Positions 1,340-53,287 of a stretch of DNA of 64,000 bases are shown in pieces. Positions within the stretch are counted from its first letter, which is position 1. Each line of letters begins with the position of its first letter. The notes under the pieces are model-generated. The model was not told the origin of the DNA and made no database searches. It saw only the letters and a list, made by a program, of their open reading frames with translations. Source of the DNA: a virus; the IMG/VR virus record IMGVR_UViG_3300027747_001761, positions 1-64,000 of that record; one strand, 5' to 3'. The translations under genes were made by a program, and so were the position numbers.

Positions 1340-2252
1340 AGTTATCAACAATGGGGATATCAATACTGTCAGGGGGAATTGTTTATAACTTTTTATGTTA
1401 AAATTCTTGATTTTGACAAAATGTCAGTCACGTTCGTCGATGGGGATAATCCTTTTCCCCCCTTTTAAGGTACAGACCTTACCCCACTCTACCACTTTTT
1501 ACCACCAAATATGTGTTCCAGCATAGTGAGAAGTCAATTTTTTCCCCCTGACGATACTCTCAGGACCAATTATTTTACTATATACGTTTCCCAGTAAATT
1601 CTGTAAGTAATGGTATAGTAGGCGTGGGAACCGTTAGGTGTTAGGAAAGTATCTTCAACGACCACTTTAGTGGGGTATTTATGACCTATAATGAACGAAC
1701 TCAATCATCCATATATGGGACACCATACAGACACAAAATACCATTAAAAGTTATTATTTGTATCACTCTTATGAGTTTAAAACTGACTACACTGATACAA
1801 AACATAACTTATTATACCGGATTATATTCATTCACATATAATTAACCACTTGTGGTTCCCTTTATATGTCTTTACATATAATCCACAATAACATCCCTGA
1901 GTGTTCATCTCATTACATTGTTCATTGCCAATGAACATACACTTTAAATGAACACCATACCGGATAACTAATTGTGTCGGAGACCGACACATAGTGGAGT
2001 GTCCTTCACTTGTCCCTCTTCTTAGTGGGGGGAACGAAGTTCCCCATTATAAATGGGGGGATATTCGTATTTATCCGTATATATACGAATTGATATACGT
2101 ATAAATTATTGAGTTTTTTATACAGATGAATATTGATGTGTATAAATAAATGGATTCTTTATATATAAGAAAATAGTAAAGGATGAAACTATGAGTGAAT
2201 TCCGGAACGGAGTGTAGGACTATGAACGAATGGATTTATCGTTTAGTATTTT
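1340..2252. other. Hairpin-rich, mostly non-coding stretch
   Basis: About 900 bases with no convincing gene but several perfect inverted repeats: AACCAC/GTGGTT (1844-1857), GTTCATT/AATGAAC (1920-1936), TGTGTCGG/CCGACACA (1973-1991), and GGGGAAC/GTTCCCC (2029-2045), whose 3' arm can instead pair with ATGGGG at 2053-2058. Palindromic TATACGAA-type repeats follow at 2060-2105. It could hold structured RNAs or a replication or packaging site. No tRNA cloverleaf was found. Confidence 0.5.
1828..1992 (-). CDS. Possible small Cys-containing protein, 54 aa
   Basis: A minus-strand frame starts MCRSPTQLVIRYGVHLK and ends NHKWLIICE, with six cysteines including a C-x-C pair in NTQGCYCGLYVK. The composition looks protein-like, but no promoter motif lies upstream and the frame runs through two of the hairpins of this region. 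It may be a real small gene or chance. Confidence 0.3.
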   Translation of the reverse strand: MCRSPTQLVIRYGVHLKCMFIGNEQCNEMNTQGCYCGLYVKTYKGNHKWLIICE

Positions 2253-2690
2253 TTAATTAGTTAATATTATTTGATACTTCATATCGGCAACATATTCTAA
2301 TATAGATTTTTTGGGTTGTTTAATAAATCTCATAATATGTTTGTTTGGGTTGAACTTTTCTAATTCAGGTAATACATCATTATCCCCCATAACATAATTG
2401 TGGGTTTTAGTATAATCTAATGCGTATTTATTATATCCTTCACCATCCATAATAGTAATAGATTTTCTATCTCCACCCCATAATTCTAATTCGGTGATAT
2501 ATTTGTCTAAATCATCCTCATATATACACCAACATTGTATTCCTTTATAAGGAAGTTTTCTTTTTGTTCCTATGTTATCAAACTTATCATATCTAACAAA
2601 TATGTATTTCCCCCGGGTTTCTTCATCTGATGATTCTTTTATAACCCCCATCATTTGTTTTATCCTATGTATGTTTTCGTGTAAGTTCAT
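2253..2690 (-). CDS. Class A tagged protein, 145 aa
   Basis: The N-terminus MNLHENIHRIKQMMGVIKE is nearly identical to that of the next gene, while the bodies are unrelated. The tag ends in I-K-E, fitting the [ILV]-x-E form of prohead-protease sites. The body (from about residue 20) is soluble, mixed alpha/beta, with no recognised domain. An ATATTTAT motif ends 4 bases before the ATG. I infer a capsid-packaged protein of unknown activity. The promoter, tag and terminator are part of a 103-bp repeat shared with the upstream gene. Confidence 0.8.
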   Translation of the reverse strand: MNLHENIHRIKQMMGVIKESSDEETRGKYIFVRYDKFDNIGTKRKLPYKGIQCWCIYEDDLDKYITELELWGGDRKSITIMDGEGYNKYALDYTKTHNYVMGDNDVLPELEKFNPNKHIMRFIKQPKKSILEYVADMKYQIILTN

Positions 2691-2694
2691 ACTA

Positions 2695-2702
2695 ATAAAT
2701 AT
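2695..2702 (-). promoter_or_regulatory. Late-type promoter motif ATATTTAT
   Basis: Ends 4 bases before the ATG at 2690; lies directly after a terminator hairpin. Confidence 0.6.
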
Positions 2703-2705
2703 AAA

Positions 2706-2734
2706 AAAAGGGAGAATGTTACTTCCCCCTTTTA
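2706..2734 (-). terminator. Intrinsic terminator
   Basis: Sense AAAAGGGGGAAG / CTCCCTTTTTTT hairpin after the gene at 2763-3236, imperfect stem followed by a T run. Confidence 0.7.
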
Positions 2735-2762
2735 ATTATTTTCTGATGAATAGTTTTATCGT

Positions 2763-3236
2763 TTAGTATTTTTCTAATACAACATACATAATATAACCAT
2801 CATCATAAAAGTATCCGTAGTCTTTTATTTTCATATTAAACTCTTCCCCTATTCGTGGGAATCTATTTGTTACGATACTTTCTATAACTTCTGATTCGGA
2901 CATACCTTTGTATTGTGGTTTGTTATATACGGCTGACCAACAAGAATCAACCCATCCTTCATAGAATACAATTGTGTTATTATCTAATATGTTCTGTATA
3001 TATACTTGGTCATCGTAACCGTCCCAATCATCCACCAACATATCGTACTCAGGTTTCTCTATATTGTAGTTTGGATTTTCATTAACTTGTTTGAAGAAAT
3101 TATCTATTAACTCCATTCTTGTTATATCTGACATTGAACAAGACCTATATTGTTCTTCCCCCATTTTTTCGAATCGGTTCTCATCAATTGAATCCATCAT
3201 TTGTTTTATCCTATGTATGTTTTCGTGTAAGTTCAT
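2763..3236 (-). CDS. Class A tagged protein, 157 aa
   Basis: Starts MNLHENIHRIKQMMDSIDE; the first 14 residues equal those of the gene at 2690 and the tag ends I-D-E. The acidic body contains DDWDGYDDQVYIQNILDN and a Trp/Cys pair in GWVDSCWSAVYNKP. No domain recognised. ATATTTAT ends 4 bases before the ATG, so it is probably transcribed separately from the nitroreductase upstream. Inferred virion-packaged protein. Confidence 0.8.
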   Translation of the reverse strand: MNLHENIHRIKQMMDSIDENRFEKMGEEQYRSCSMSDITRMELIDNFFKQVNENPNYNIEKPEYDMLVDDWDGYDDQVYIQNILDNNTIVFYEGWVDSCWSAVYNKPQYKGMSESEVIESIVTNRFPRIGEEFNMKIKDYGYFYDDGYIMYVVLEKY

Positions 3237-3240
3237 ACTA

Positions 3241-3248
3241 ATAAATAT
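3241..3248 (-). promoter_or_regulatory. Late-type promoter motif ATATTTAT
   Basis: Ends 4 bases before the ATG at 3236. Confidence 0.6.
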
Positions 3249-3251
3249 AAA

Positions 3252-3280
3252 AAAAGGGAGAATGTTACTTCCCCCTTTTA
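3252..3280 (-). terminator. Intrinsic terminator after nitroreductase
   Basis: Same hairpin as at 2706-2734, directly after the nitroreductase stop codon. Confidence 0.7.
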
Positions 3281-3281
3281 A

Positions 3282-3905
3282 TTATTTTCTGATGAAGAAC
3301 ATATCTCTTCTTACTTTCTTCATTGTGGATAGTGAATCATTCTCTGTGTCTCTATATCCTAATGGTAATACAAGTGTAGATTTTAATCCTAATTCTTTTA
3401 ATTCTAATATCTCATCTACTTGTGATGGTACGAATCCCTCCATTGGAGTTGAATCCACCCCTTCTATTGCTGATGCTACTAATGAGAACCCTAATCCTAT
3501 ATACGTTTGTTTCTGAGCCCATATTGTTTTTTGTTCTTCAGACATATTTGTGATTGTTCCCACCATCATACCTTTTAAATCATCTAATACATTCACCGGG
3601 ATGTTTCTTTGGTCCGCTATAGTGTTGATGTAGTTCTCCACCGACCATTCGGTAATCTCGTCCCATACAGCGAATACCAATACAGCTGATGAATCTTTTA
3701 GTTGCGTTTGCCCGTAACACGCTCCTACTAACTTTTCTTTTAACTCTTGGTCCTCCACCACGATTACCTGATACGGTGTTAGCCCATATGAACTCGGAGC
3801 CAATCTTGTTGCCTCTAAGATTCTCTCTAATTTATCCTGAGGTATTTTATCCCCATTCATTTTCTTGGTGGCATATCTCCACTGTAACGATTCTATTAAT
3901 TCCAT
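3282..3905 (-). CDS. Nitroreductase-family NAD(P)H:FMN oxidoreductase
   Basis: At 207 residues it has the usual length of NfsB-like flavoproteins. Visible family features are the N-terminal helix with RYATKKM (about 10-16), the phosphate-contacting RLAPSSYGLTPYQ (about 34-46), and the C-terminal LPLGYRD. Such enzymes bind FMN as dimers and reduce nitro compounds or quinones with NAD(P)H; the phage substrate is unknown. It is the last gene of a group running from 4571 and ends at a terminator. It carries no N-terminal tag, so it probably acts in the host cytoplasm. Confidence 0.88.
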   Translation of the reverse strand: MELIESLQWRYATKKMNGDKIPQDKLERILEATRLAPSSYGLTPYQVIVVEDQELKEKLVGACYGQTQLKDSSAVLVFAVWDEITEWSVENYINTIADQRNIPVNVLDDLKGMMVGTITNMSEEQKTIWAQKQTYIGLGFSLVASAIEGVDSTPMEGFVPSQVDEILELKELGLKSTLVLPLGYRDTENDSLSTMKKVRRDMFFIRK

Positions 3906-6546: not shown

Positions 6547-7005
6547 CTATTTGTAGTGTTTTAATGCGTCAACCATAAATAAGAAAACCTCATCTAATGT
6601 ATTATCATCTAAATCTGTATATCGTTCAGTAAAACTACTTTTGTGTCTTTCATAATCTTCACCATCATAAACATCTACGGTAACAAAGTCCGAATGGAAA
6701 TACTCAATTTGATGTAACTCATCACCAGGAGAACCATATGGAATTGCATCCATATTTAATTCATACGTAGATATCCCGGTTGAGTTACGTTCTTCGGCCA
6801 AATGTTTGACCACATCATTAATAAAATCAATCATTTCTTCATTTGAAAACACATAATCCCCCATCATTTTTGTAAGATTATTATATCCCCCAAAATAACG
6901 AATGGCTTGGTATAACCCCATTTCTTGAACAACATCAACCACTTTATTCTCATTGATAATCCCCATCATCTGATGGATTCTATGTATGTTCTCGTTTAAA
7001 TTCAT
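6547..7005 (-). CDS. Class A tagged protein, AIRYFG family
   Basis: The tag MNLNENIHRIHQMMGIINE precedes a body with QAIRYFGGYNNLTKMM and a C-terminal block starting ELHQIEYFHSDFVTVDVYD. The same two blocks occur in the next upstream gene, which carries a different tag. Function unknown. Two bases separate it from the gene at 6544, consistent with one transcript. Confidence 0.82.
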   Translation of the reverse strand: MNLNENIHRIHQMMGIINENKVVDVVQEMGLYQAIRYFGGYNNLTKMMGDYVFSNEEMIDFINDVVKHLAEERNSTGISTYELNMDAIPYGSPGDELHQIEYFHSDFVTVDVYDGEDYERHKSSFTERYTDLDDNTLDEVFLFMVDALKHYK

Positions 7006-7008
7006 ATC

Positions 7009-7734
7009 TTAATGGTTTAATAATATCTCAACCAATTCCTCAATTATTTGCACAGGTAAACTTTCATACTTAGCATAATAGTCCCTTAAATGACTACTAT
7101 ACTCATTTTCATATACACTAATGTCCACACTTGTTAGTCCTAACCATTCTATTTGATGTTCCTCCCCATCTTCATTACTATAATGAAGTGGTTCTTCATC
7201 TATCACTTGTAAAACAATACCACTACCATCATCACTTAATTCTTTAACTTTTTCTTTAATAAAATTAACCTTATCAATCACTTTTAAGTATGGCTCAATT
7301 GTGTAGTAATTCCCAAAATAACGGATGGCATCAGAAACCCCCAAAGTTTTAATCATATTGGAAATACTATTATCTTTATCCTCTTTTATAATATCATTAC
7401 AACTATTTACGTATTTGGTAAACATATCTAATTTCTGTCCGGTATAATTATAAACCAAATCCCACACTTCATTCATTACATTATCCATCAATTGAGCTCT
7501 TGTTGCTGAATACCCACCTTTATGAGCGATTAAATAAAATGTTATCCTGTAATTCTCATAATTATTATCCGAATGTGGTAGTTTGGTTCTATTGTCCGGA
7601 TGTTTAACCTCAACCTTACAAAGAATGTCTTTGTGGTCATCAACAAACCCATCTAGCAATGTTTCAATAACTGAAGTTAAATCTCTTTTAGATTCCTCAT
7701 TAACTATACTCTTTATGGTTCTTATTAATTTCAT
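7009..7734 (-). CDS. Class B tagged two-domain protein, AIRYFG family
   Basis: The tag MKLIRTIKSIVNEE is followed by a first domain (about 20-110, with YRITFYLIAHKGGYSATR) and then a domain homologous to the body of 6547-7005 (SDAIRYFGNY, EEHQIEWLGLTSVDISVYE). It is thus a fusion of two cargo bodies behind another tag class. Its ATG overlaps the previous stop as TAATG. Confidence 0.82.
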   Translation of the reverse strand: MKLIRTIKSIVNEESKRDLTSVIETLLDGFVDDHKDILCKVEVKHPDNRTKLPHSDNNYENYRITFYLIAHKGGYSATRAQLMDNVMNEVWDLVYNYTGQKLDMFTKYVNSCNDIIKEDKDNSISNMIKTLGVSDAIRYFGNYYTIEPYLKVIDKVNFIKEKVKELSDDGSGIVLQVIDEEPLHYSNEDGEEHQIEWLGLTSVDISVYENEYSSHLRDYYAKYESLPVQIIEELVEILLNH

Positions 7735-8138
7735 TAGTAACTTACTAAATTTGCTGCCGTTATTTCTCTAACACCATAATCCGGGAAATGTTTTTTGAAG
7801 AAGTCCTGAAGTGCGTATTTAAAATGTCTTGATAAATAACCGTATGGTATATAACCTTCCAAATTTTCTTGTAAGGAATAATCATACCATAATCTTTCAT
7901 TTATTTTATCGTATTTAATTAGATTTTTGTCAAGGTTTTTCCCATTAAGTAAAACTATTATTTTACCATTGTTAATTTCCGCATATGAATTTATTTCTGA
8001 CTCTAAAAGCTTAATTATAGTTTTTTTCCATTTTGGATATTCTTCCTCATACTCTTGGTCAGAACGAGCTCTTGAGACGTAGGCATCTTTACCTTCCATC
8101 ATTTCTTTGATTCTATCAATGTTTTCCTGTAAGTTCAT
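7734..8138 (-). CDS. Class A tagged protein, 134 aa
   Basis: The start at 8138 gives MNLQENIDRIKEMMEGKDAY, matching the class A tags; earlier in-frame starts would overlap the upstream gene by about 75 bases and are rejected. The body is lysine-rich with NYAEINNGK-like and DFFKKHFPDYGVREI segments. No domain recognised. This tag lacks a clear [ILV]-x-E end, ending M-E-G instead. Confidence 0.75.
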   Translation of the reverse strand: MNLQENIDRIKEMMEGKDAYVSRARSDQEYEEEYPKWKKTIIKLLESEINSYAEINNGKIIVLLNGKNLDKNLIKYDKINERLWYDYSLQENLEGYIPYGYLSRHFKYALQDFFKKHFPDYGVREITAANLVSY

Positions 8139-8139
8139 A

Positions 8140-8910
8140 TTATTTTTCTTCAGGTAATTTAGTATCTTTAATAAACTTCTTGTGTGAATCTTTATACGAT
8201 TTCTCAGTCTCATCATTTACATCTTTGGTGTATTGCCAATTCCAATACAAGTCATCGTTTGGTTTAAATCCATAGAATCTGTGAACTTCTTTCTGAACTT
8301 CAGTAACATTCTCACCATTCCAATTCTGTCCAACACAAATGAATCCGGTCTCAATATCTTTAACAAGATTTGATTCCCCAAGTGTTGCGTGTCTGTTCTC
8401 AATCCAAGTCAATCTCTCAATTAAGTTCTGATAGAACATATTGGTTTGTCCCCATCTAACTGAACTGAAGAATACAACAGCATCAGATTCAAATAACTCT
8501 TTGGATATCTTCCATAACTCATCCTTTGGATTGTTATAACTTGCCCAACATCTATGGTCTCCGGATGGATTCTTTTTCTTATCTTTGAGCATCGCTTTAA
8601 GTAATCCACAGCTGTTCCCGTCTTTTCTTGATACATTCCCCTCACAAGGAACAATATTAAGTTCAGAGACATCAATTAACATTGAGTCTTTTAACTCATC
8701 GTTAAGATACATTGCAATCATCTTTGATTTTGGTATGTCAAGGTTTTTATCATCCCAATTATGTCTGTTGGAACAACTTAAGATTAAAACTTTTTTCTTT
8801 TCTTTAAGAATATCTAAGGTTTTTTTAATTGATTTCCACGCATCTGATTGAACCATCTCTTCCGAAATCATCATTTCTCTTATTCTTTGTATGTTCTCGT
8901 GTAAGTTCAT
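8140..8910 (-). CDS. Tagged flavodoxin-fold NAD(P)H oxidoreductase
   Basis: The class A tag MNLHENIQRIREMMISEE is joined to a flavodoxin-like body starting near residue 38 (KKKVLILSCSNRHN, the phosphate-binding loop after strand 1). Later family-like segments are DAVVFFSSVRWGQTNMFYQN and the C-terminal GFICVGQNWNGENV. Relatives are NADPH-dependent FMN reductases and WrbA-like flavoproteins. A tagged redox enzyme could be carried into the host with the DNA. It leads the operon running to 6131. Confidence 0.8.
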   Translation of the reverse strand: MNLHENIQRIREMMISEEMVQSDAWKSIKKTLDILKEKKKVLILSCSNRHNWDDKNLDIPKSKMIAMYLNDELKDSMLIDVSELNIVPCEGNVSRKDGNSCGLLKAMLKDKKKNPSGDHRCWASYNNPKDELWKISKELFESDAVVFFSSVRWGQTNMFYQNLIERLTWIENRHATLGESNLVKDIETGFICVGQNWNGENVTEVQKEVHRFYGFKPNDDLYWNWQYTKDVNDETEKSYKDSHKKFIKDTKLPEEK

Positions 8911-28753: not shown

Positions 28754-28808
28754 ACAAAGATAATACTTTATTTTATATAAACAAAAAAAAGGAACTAAAT
28801 GTTCCTTT
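28754..28808. repeat. 55-bp direct repeat, copy 1
   Basis: Perfect match to 29581-29635. It contains the host-type promoter and a terminator hairpin; a weaker third copy is at about 32970-33006. Confidence 0.95.
28755..28785 (-). promoter_or_regulatory. Host-type promoter TTTG-19-TATCTTTG
   Basis: -7 box 28755-28762, 4 bases from the ATG at 28750; -33 at 28782-28785, next to the terminator. Confidence 0.8.
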
Positions 28809-29560: not shown

Positions 29561-29581
29561 AATATATCTGTTTTGTGAGTA

Positions 29582-29612
29582 CAAAGATAATACTTTATTT
29601 TATATAAACAAA
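29582..29612 (-). promoter_or_regulatory. Host-type promoter TTTG-19-TATCTTTG
   Basis: -7 box 29582-29589, -33 29609-29612; leader about 15-20 bases to the ATG at 29560. Confidence 0.78.
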
Positions 29613-29614
29613 AA

Positions 29615-29635
29615 AAAGGAACTAAATGTTCCTTT
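29615..29635 (-). terminator. Intrinsic terminator
   Basis: AAAGGAAC / GTTCCTTT; ends the tagged gene at 29634, overlapping its stop codon. Confidence 0.78.
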
Positions 29636-51799: not shown

Positions 51800-53287
51800 T
51801 TATTGAGTTTTTTGATTGTAACCAATTAAAGATTTCATTCTAGCAAACTCTTCATTAATTTGTTTTTGTTTTTTAACTTCAATGGATTCTAATTTAGCCA
51901 TTAATTTATCCCCTTCATCTTCACCTGCAGTATCTTTAATAATTGGTTGAGGAGCTTTGTTATAAGCCTTTTTCTTAATCTGACCTAAGATATTATCTTT
52001 TCTAATTTTATTACGTTTTTTATTAACATTAGATTCACCGGTGTTTGCCCACTCAGGATTATTACCTGTTCTTGAAGAACCTTCAATATTATCAGTAACC
52101 CATTCTTCATTTGGATGGATTTCATCGTACACTAAATTTTCTTGTCCTGCAGCAGTTAAATTATCAACATACTCTTCAACAGCACCTGACGGGATATACG
52201 CTTTTTTACTCATTTTTTCTAATTCACCATTTCCTTTTGGGAATATTTTAGGGTTCATATCGTAATCACCTTTAGAACCATCTTTAAGGTAATCTTTCAT
52301 TTTTTTGGTAACATCTTTAATGTAATCATTATTTTCTTTACCAGAACCATTGTGTGCTTTTTTATAAACTTCTAAACCTCTTGGAGAACCCCCCATTCCT
52401 TTAATGTTATTTTTTTCCGCAGGGTCCTTAACAATTTTATTTTTTTGCTCTTTAACAATTTTTTCAATTAAACTAATCATTTCACTTTCAGTTAATCTGT
52501 AAGATTCTTTAATATTTTTTTTGTGGTCAGCACCTTTATATGCTTTAATATTTTTAGCAAAGTTAGCTTGTTTAACTAATTTAGGGTCACCACTTTTTAA
52601 TGCTTTCTCAATACAAGATTTAGTCACTTCTCCTCCACAATGTTTAGAGAAATCACCTTTAGTTCCTTTTTTCTCAATTTCTTTTTCTGCTTTCTGAATA
52701 AAATTTTTACCTTCTTTAGTTTCAAATTTTTTACCGTCAACCTCAAAATTATCTTTACCTGTTTTTCTAGCTTGAGATAATGCACCAGTAAAGGCATTAC
52801 CTTCATCTGTTTCAGATTTTTTACTTTGTCTCAACATTTTGAAATCTTCAGCATCAATTTTATTGTTTTTATTTTTATCTAATCTTCTTTGACGACCTTT
52901 TAATGATTCAGTAATGTTAACACCTTGACACATTTCTTTAGTTACCGGGTCTTCTTTACCAAAATTTTCTATATGATATCTACAAGTTTTTTCTCTGTCT
53001 TCGTCAGTATTTTCCTCATCATTTTCAATATCGTCAATAGATTCATTCTCACCAACGTAGTCAAATTCATTATTGTTATTTAAATCTTGGAAATCGTGAA
53101 TGTCTTCCTCCATTTCACCACCTTTATAACCACATTCATTACATTCACCTTCATACATAGTTCCACCACATTCACATACATTACCACCTTTTATTTTAGA
53201 AACAAGACTATCAGCCTTCTCTTCTAAAGTCTCTTTTAGAATTTTAGACACTAAATTATCTAAATAAGTTGTATTTAATTTTTTCAT
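51800..53287 (-). CDS. Probable internal virion polyprotein, 495 aa
   Basis: The tag MKKLNTTYLDNLVSKILKE is followed by a zinc site (CECGGTMYEGECNECGYKGG, about 37-56), two EF-hand-like acidic loops (DLNNNNEFDYVGE; DKNKNNKIDAEDF), a GNAFTGALSQARKTGKDNFE segment, and a second internal tag, SYRLTESEMISLIEKIVKEQ, near residue 268. The end has KQINEEFARMKSLIGYNQ. Several [ILV]-x-E sites could let the head protease cut it into pieces. No enzyme domain recognised. Confidence 0.78.
   Translation of the reverse strand: MKKLNTTYLDNLVSKILKETLEEKADSLVSKIKGGNVCECGGTMYEGECNECGYKGGEMEEDIHDFQDLNNNNEFDYVGENESIDDIENDEENTDEDREKTCRYHIENFGKEDPVTKEMCQGVNITESLKGRQRRLDKNKNNKIDAEDFKMLRQSKKSETDEGNAFTGALSQARKTGKDNFEVDGKKFETKEGKNFIQKAEKEIEKKGTKGDFSKHCGGEVTKSCIEKALKSGDPKLVKQANFAKNIKAYKGADHKKNIKESYRLTESEMISLIEKIVKEQKNKIVKDPAEKNNIKGMGGSPRGLEVYKKAHNGSGKENNDYIKDVTKKMKDYLKDGSKGDYDMNPKIFPKGNGELEKMSKKAYIPSGAVEEYVDNLTAAGQENLVYDEIHPNEEWVTDNIEGSSRTGNNPEWANTGESNVNKKRNKIRKDNILGQIKKKAYNKAPQPIIKDTAGEDEGDKLMAKLESIEVKKQKQINEEFARMKSLIGYNQKTQ

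Follow-up and report, generated by a model that had tools for sequence, protein, structure and literature searches.

The internal proteins of phage T4 and Alt, an ADP-ribosyltransferase, are packaged in the virion and trimmed, and are later ejected together with the DNA to enter the next host. Another feature of T4-type phages, the PeSL cassettes, was reportedly described by Arbiol in 2010 and Comeau in 2014. T4 IPI-III and Alt carry capsid-targeting sequences (Mullaney and Black; reviewed in PMC9026906); the internal proteins are targeted to the core by propeptides of 10-19 residues, and gp21 cuts after L/I-X-E (PMC9026906). In phiKZ and SPN3US, N-termini cleaved by the prohead protease target ejection proteins, and paralogues with identical N-termini occur (PMC5694885). 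Polyvalent proteins are injected effectors of phages and plasmids (PMC5512222), and PeSLs are mobile regulatory cassettes of T4-type phages (PMC4503421).

The locus described here, next to a nitroreductase gene of an uncultured virus, resembles the T4 internal proteins in that a short N-terminal sequence ending in [I/L]xE precedes different bodies and occurs with a gp21-type protease and gp23. Unlike in T4, the tag sequences are others and fall into five classes, tag-rich contigs hold about 16-35 tagged genes, one body can stand behind different tags, and cargo arrays lie in variable slots. As in the head propeptides of phiKZ and SPN3US, N-termini can be identical and would serve head targeting, with cleavage predicted here; however, those propeptides mostly exceed 100 residues and end in AxE or SxE, whereas the tags here have about 7-25 residues and [I/L]xE. 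To account for the observed repeat, slot variants and empty site, tag swaps, site enrichment and the co-occurrence of tag, protease and gp23 in relatives, we propose that the repeat probably arose by duplication of the head of a cargo slot with variable contents, in a large T4-type phage whose cargo carries removable targeting propeptides; packaging, cleavage, ejection and the order of recombination are inferred parts of this proposal.

The window analysed, 64,000 nucleotides, is part of a 64.3-kb IMG/VR record, and its DNA had no match among phage records by blastn. The first-pass annotation had described positions 2648-2750 and 3194-3296 as identical, and they indeed agree at 103 of 103 bases, with sharp edges and a different neighbouring base on both sides. 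The exact repeat DNA had no match in IMG/VR; apart from one pair of about 55 bp, it is the only same-strand exact repeat of at least 30 bp in the window. Its contents, too, are as had been described. On the minus strand, where all features of the locus lie, each copy reads through the last five nitroreductase codons including the stop (TTCATCAGAAAATAA; protein ending FIRK), a terminator hairpin, ATATTTAT, TAGT, ATG and 43 coding bases giving MNLHENIHRIKQMM (tag codons at 3195-3236 and 2649-2690). Only the 3194 copy belongs to the nitroreductase gene (3282-3905, 207 aa; Pfam Nitroreductase, E 1e-19; PHROG 18935), which by synteny is a fixed landmark at one slot end in relatives; in the 2648 copy the first 15 bases (2736-2750) are a remnant of its 3' end. 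The intrinsic terminator (11-bp stem, 6-nt loop, T tract; GGGGGAA-GTAACA-TTCTCCC plus T7) occupies 3252-3279, where the 61-nt stretch folds at -17.2 kcal/mol (z -3.6), and 2706-2733. Its hairpin occurs in the window at these two copies only, none being expected from shuffles. The motif ATATTTAT follows at 3241-3248 and 2695-2702, four bases before the ATG.

Behind the 3194 copy lies a gene for a 157-aa protein and behind the 2648 copy one for a 145-aa protein. That the two proteins are unrelated past the repeat holds up: they fall into separate clusters (E<=1e-3) and a mutual match is absent at E<=0.1. No known domain was found in either, and the 157-aa protein, although modelled with confidence (pLDDT 83.5), matched no BFVD or PDB fold at E<=0.001. 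Predicted prohead-protease sites stand just beyond the repeat edge, each body bringing its own: I-D-E before N (3180-3188) in the 157-aa gene, matching the L/I-X-E motif of T4 gp21 (PMC9026906), and the [I/L]xE motif I-K-E before S (2634-2642) in the 145-aa gene. The bodies then extend over 2763-3179 and 2253-2633, respectively. If the two genes were paralogues that diverged along their full length, with the repeat kept by gene conversion or selection, the identical order of parts in both, a similar 3' flank included, would be explained. This is extremely improbable, as the bodies are without similarity, the 157-aa body belongs to a separate family in which other tags occur, and the 3' flank is slot DNA that is present also without any tagged gene.

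A search of IMG/VR with the nitroreductase gave 29 loci, on contigs of which many are fragments. Between the nitroreductase gene and the conserved 3' flank, these loci hold no tagged gene (four contigs), one, two or three. At the empty site (L254-L256, L258), nitroreductase is followed by another terminator and then immediately by DNA matching that to the left of window position 2253. Locus L257 has one gene, L259 two, L260 three and the window two; in the more distant setting of L275 and L280, where the flank was not reached, at least four genes follow nitroreductase. The check suggested earlier, a search of relatives for the same unit with other bodies, was positive in L257, L259 and L260 and supports the earlier proposal that recombination had joined the unit to a new body: their slot head is that of the window (terminator, ATATTTAT, ATGAACTTACA), the arrangement of terminator, ATATTTAT and ATG being kept in these four phages, and their first bodies differ. 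Slot bodies shared between loci are limited to the 187- and 118-aa genes, common to L259 and L260; L260 has one extra whole tagged gene, inserted between the head and the second gene. The head remains at the nitroreductase slot and bodies are exchanged behind it. We infer that the window contains a variable cargo locus for proteins predicted to be packaged, cleaved and ejected; if so, comparing the empty slot with filled ones reveals how such cargo is acquired and swapped. In L257 (3670-4254), the single slot ORF of 194 aa carries a class C tag (MNLQESIRRILREE) in mid-protein, as if two tagged genes had fused. To the left of the slot, window positions 1500-2228 are AT-rich, with no clear gene and a hairpin at 1973-1991; this DNA is also conserved where the slot is empty (L254: 75% over 744 bp).

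A second repeat, matching at 24 of 26 bases, lies 3' of both genes (2228-2253 and 2748-2773). The inner copy equals the L257 flank at 26 of 26 bases and abuts the second 103-bp copy, with TTC (2748-2750) common to both; the outer copy runs on into DNA conserved beside nitroreductase in relatives, and its two differences from the inner copy are also sites unlike L257 and L254. The simplest history looks like a single unequal crossover between two one-gene alleles: at the TTC microhomology, the 3' flank of one allele would have been joined to the point where nitroreductase ends in the other, and the resulting two-gene allele would contain the 103-bp repeat. The parents and the order of events are reconstructed here from the sequence. 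As the 145-aa body has no relative in IMG/VR, its one-gene allele was not seen alone there. Because the contig is metagenomic and the two flank copies resemble two alleles, one might suspect that the assembler joined the alleles of two strains via the 103-bp repeat; this is very unlikely, since the inner junction shares three bases only, so that overlap assembly would not create it, and independent contigs also have multi-gene slots.

The first-pass annotation had called the promoter in the repeat late, and a late type is supported by its distribution. WTATTTAT precedes 185 of 628 operon-lead starts, compared with 38 expected from shuffling and 60 on the antisense strand, and it is found before 28 of 40 tagged but 157 of 588 untagged operon-lead genes (odds ratio 6.4, P 5e-8). 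The Bacteroidota-like motif TAnnTTTG, in contrast, is rare before tagged operon-lead genes (1 of 40 versus 97 of 588 untagged). This pattern of promoter motifs, together with the similarity of a relative's gp23 to Flavobacterium phages, points to Bacteroidota as the putative host group. Directly before gp23 the late-promoter motif is absent in nearly all contigs, as expected within an operon. We do not claim ATATTTAT as a homologue of the T4 late promoter, as it is unlike T4 TATAAATA on the sense strand and closer to its reverse complement.

To find the tag of the repeat (class A) elsewhere, IMG/VR was searched with a degenerate DNA pattern for ENIxRIKxMM from which the cleavage site was excluded. 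Among 96 in-frame matches, 95 were at a protein N-terminus; 93 start 4-5 residues and two 8-9 residues after the start codon, and one is unrelated. The pattern was not found in 84,980 prokaryote genomes. An [I/L]xE lies within 8 residues after MM in 37 of 40 tag-bearing bodies (clusters unrelated at E<=1e-3) compared with 66 of 841 control windows (7.8%); three of the 40 are without a nearby site, and both repeat-linked genes have one. Although the end of the tag varies in length (GLLTE, GINE, ISE), [I/L]xE is constant. The window holds three further class A genes on the minus strand: 6547-7005 (152 aa; MNLNENIHRIHQMMGIINE before N), 7734-8138 (134 aa; MNLQENIDRIKEMM, without [I/L]xE in the next 8 residues) and 8140-8910 (256 aa; MNLHENIQRIREMMISE before E, also preceded by ATATTTAT). 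With tag classes defined by regular expressions and genes by an ATG-to-stop rule, counts per genome are approximate: about 16 tagged genes in the window and 24-35 in each of three contigs of 282-295 kb.

The same 14 of 24 large class A contigs carry both an S77 protease and gp23, and the other 10 carry neither, as expected of fragments. The gp23 propeptides end in LINE before A in 15 contigs. The window contig, a fragment without head genes, gave no match for gp23 or the S77 protease, so the link between tag and protease rests on relatives. In T4, used as a positive control, MKTYQEFIAE is common to IPII and IPIII, and the first residues are MELITE in Alt and MAKINELLRE in gp24; the class B tag (MKIIITE) resembles the start of Alt and class C (MKxLIRKILRE) that of gp24. 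The reading that fits the tag best is a capsid-targeting propeptide of the T4 type. Two further observations concern the head genes. In a 269-kb contig (G016, IMGVR_UViG_3300032296_003307), S77 protease and gp23 are each encoded twice, one set being of the type of Flavobacterium phage immuto; the contig may be a chimera or a co-assembly, or the phage may have two head modules. Next to gp23, a head-region protein (L175, L177, L179, G027:15328-16281, G005:153405-154343) has an N-terminus of varying length that ends in LNE, ISE, ILE or LKE, resembling the gp23 cleavage site, and is followed by a G/S-rich start.

Tags are exchanged on bodies. The 157-aa body stands behind MNLHENIHRIKQMMDSIDE in the window and behind four tag classes in relatives: MNLQEQITRIKEMMGVINE (L006 and others), MKIIITE (L013-L021), MNLQESIRRILREE (L131) and MKYLKLFE (L023). 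A body family marked by GLHDTSW is preceded by VINE, LLTE, LQKE, SLQE or LFE from different tags. Nine body families have two or more tag classes, and all five classes swap on bodies with [I/L]xE retained; 25 of 30 proteins, not all of them independent, have this motif close to where homology begins, versus 18.6% of controls. On the L023 contig (G013), for example at 58357-73371, 22 proteins begin with MKYLKLFEN or a similar sequence; over half of these are paralogues belonging to a single family, and the bodies of the others differ. A permanent N-terminal signal, for instance for a replication compartment, a membrane or protein turnover, would also suit a tag that by itself is a predicted helix and whose cleavage is itself a prediction. 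This is quite unlikely: [I/L]xE is retained at the boundary between tag and body despite changes in tag length and class, the tag co-occurs with the S77 protease and gp23, and the promoters on tagged genes are late-type.

Most tagged bodies match no known fold or function. DUF2237, a bacterial family (E 7e-39), follows a class A tag in L275 and a class C tag in L131, suggesting that a body of cellular type was captured. Among the tagged families, several (nucleotide kinase-like, DUF2237) have the look of ordinary cytoplasmic proteins; this is evidence neither for nor against ejection. ART-PolyVal is the match of one tagged body (E 2e-6, slightly short of the Pfam cut-off), a parallel to the packaged ADP-ribosyltransferase Alt of T4, and another body weakly resembles ParB_N. 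Like polyvalent proteins, the tagged proteins are predicted to be packaged and injected effectors. Unlike the large, multidomain polyvalent proteins, they are small, with a single body and a predicted cleavable tag; the 145- and 157-aa proteins do not have the two or more effector domains per polypeptide that define the polyvalent type.

How far the repeat acts as a portable promoter-plus-tag cassette, as had been proposed, differs between its parts: the coding tag is shared genome-wide, but the promoter and terminator are not portable in general. Across 42 within-genome pairs of class A genes, the 42-nt tag DNA is 85% identical, whereas the 60 bp upstream (36%) and downstream (34%) are at background. 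The upstream part is shared in full by only one of the 42 pairs, 2648/3194, which indicates that terminator and promoter are a fixed feature of the slot, duplicated once, and not a travelling cassette. Concerted evolution of tags within a genome was not seen: tags of one genome do not resemble each other more than they resemble those of other genomes, so frequent recombination at tags is not apparent at the DNA level.

Like PeSLs, the locus has a repeated terminator and promoter between genes, at a boundary for gene exchange. It differs in that the promoter is late-type, with ATATTTAT as its motif rather than the TTGACA/TATAAT or TAnnTTTG of an early, sigma70-like promoter, and in that the repeat extends into targeting-tag coding sequence. 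PeSLs occupy many intergenic sites; here the head is at one locus, the hairpin is present only at the two copies and the upstream DNA is unshared elsewhere. Plain PeSL-like shuffling, with promoter and terminator motifs as recombination handles and the shared tag codons as a by-product of crossover positions, would fit a head made of promoter and terminator, the terminator-promoter repeat of 55 bp at 28754-28808 and 29581-29635, and the presence of PeSLs in T4-like phages (cited in PMC4503421). As a full explanation it is unlikely, because the tag is shared across genomes without promoter or terminator and five tag classes swap on bodies while [I/L]xE is kept; it may still describe how the DNA is exchanged and, in that role, hold alongside a slot for propeptide-tagged cargo. 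The exact pair of about 55 bp, on the minus strand, combines a terminator hairpin (AAAGGAACATTTAGTTCCTTT) with a Bacteroidota-like TATCTTTG promoter before two genes and is a PeSL-like early cassette in the window.

For the cargo slot we propose the following working. The constant head by the nitroreductase gene would stop upstream transcription, start late transcription and encode the first propeptide codons, and behind it would come exchangeable bodies, each with its own prohead-protease site ([I/L]xE). The tagged proteins would be made late and drawn into the prohead core by the tag helix; the S77 (gp21-type) protease would then trim the tag, and the cargo would be ejected with the DNA into the next host. 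If this is true, [I/L]xE after one of a few N-terminal tags marks out as virion cargo tens of proteins in each genome that are uncharacterised in other respects, and supplies a set of candidates for anti-defence and host-takeover factors in large phages whose genes cannot otherwise be read.

A more tentative idea, possible but somewhat doubtful, is that class A tags mimic the C-terminal peptide of gp22, the scaffold of the same phage, and thereby load cargo, such that any body so tagged could enter the core beside the scaffold. For the gp22 C-terminus of phage immuto (SEQVSRWQKLAGIIK), the two best matches in the proteome are the N-termini of tagged proteins, MKKQILSEQFRRMQKLAGIITE and MKKQILSEQFKRMQFLAGIITE, each before S (scores 48 and 41, against 27 for the 99.9th percentile of interior windows). 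The gp22 of the uncultured phages has the C-terminus YENPQFLRMKDLMSKLK (in one, ENPQFSRIKEMMRKIK), and the tags read ENIxRIKxMMG. By local alignment the similarity between class A tags and gp22 C-termini in this lineage is weak and not significant, so scaffold mimicry is kept as a speculative case only. The motif R[MIL][KR]x[ML][MI] is, in the same lineage, almost confined to N-terminal tags and protein C-termini. If true, loading in these phages would be an open system, serving injected proteins that number in the tens and are interchangeable, and the idea makes it directly testable how a phage selects what it packages. A 495-aa protein of the window (51800-53287, minus strand) has an N-terminus like class C, and its C-terminus, NEEFARMKSLIGYNQKTQ, resembles those of the gp22 scaffolds; another contig (G019) encodes, at 89291-90481, a protein whose C-terminus is similar.
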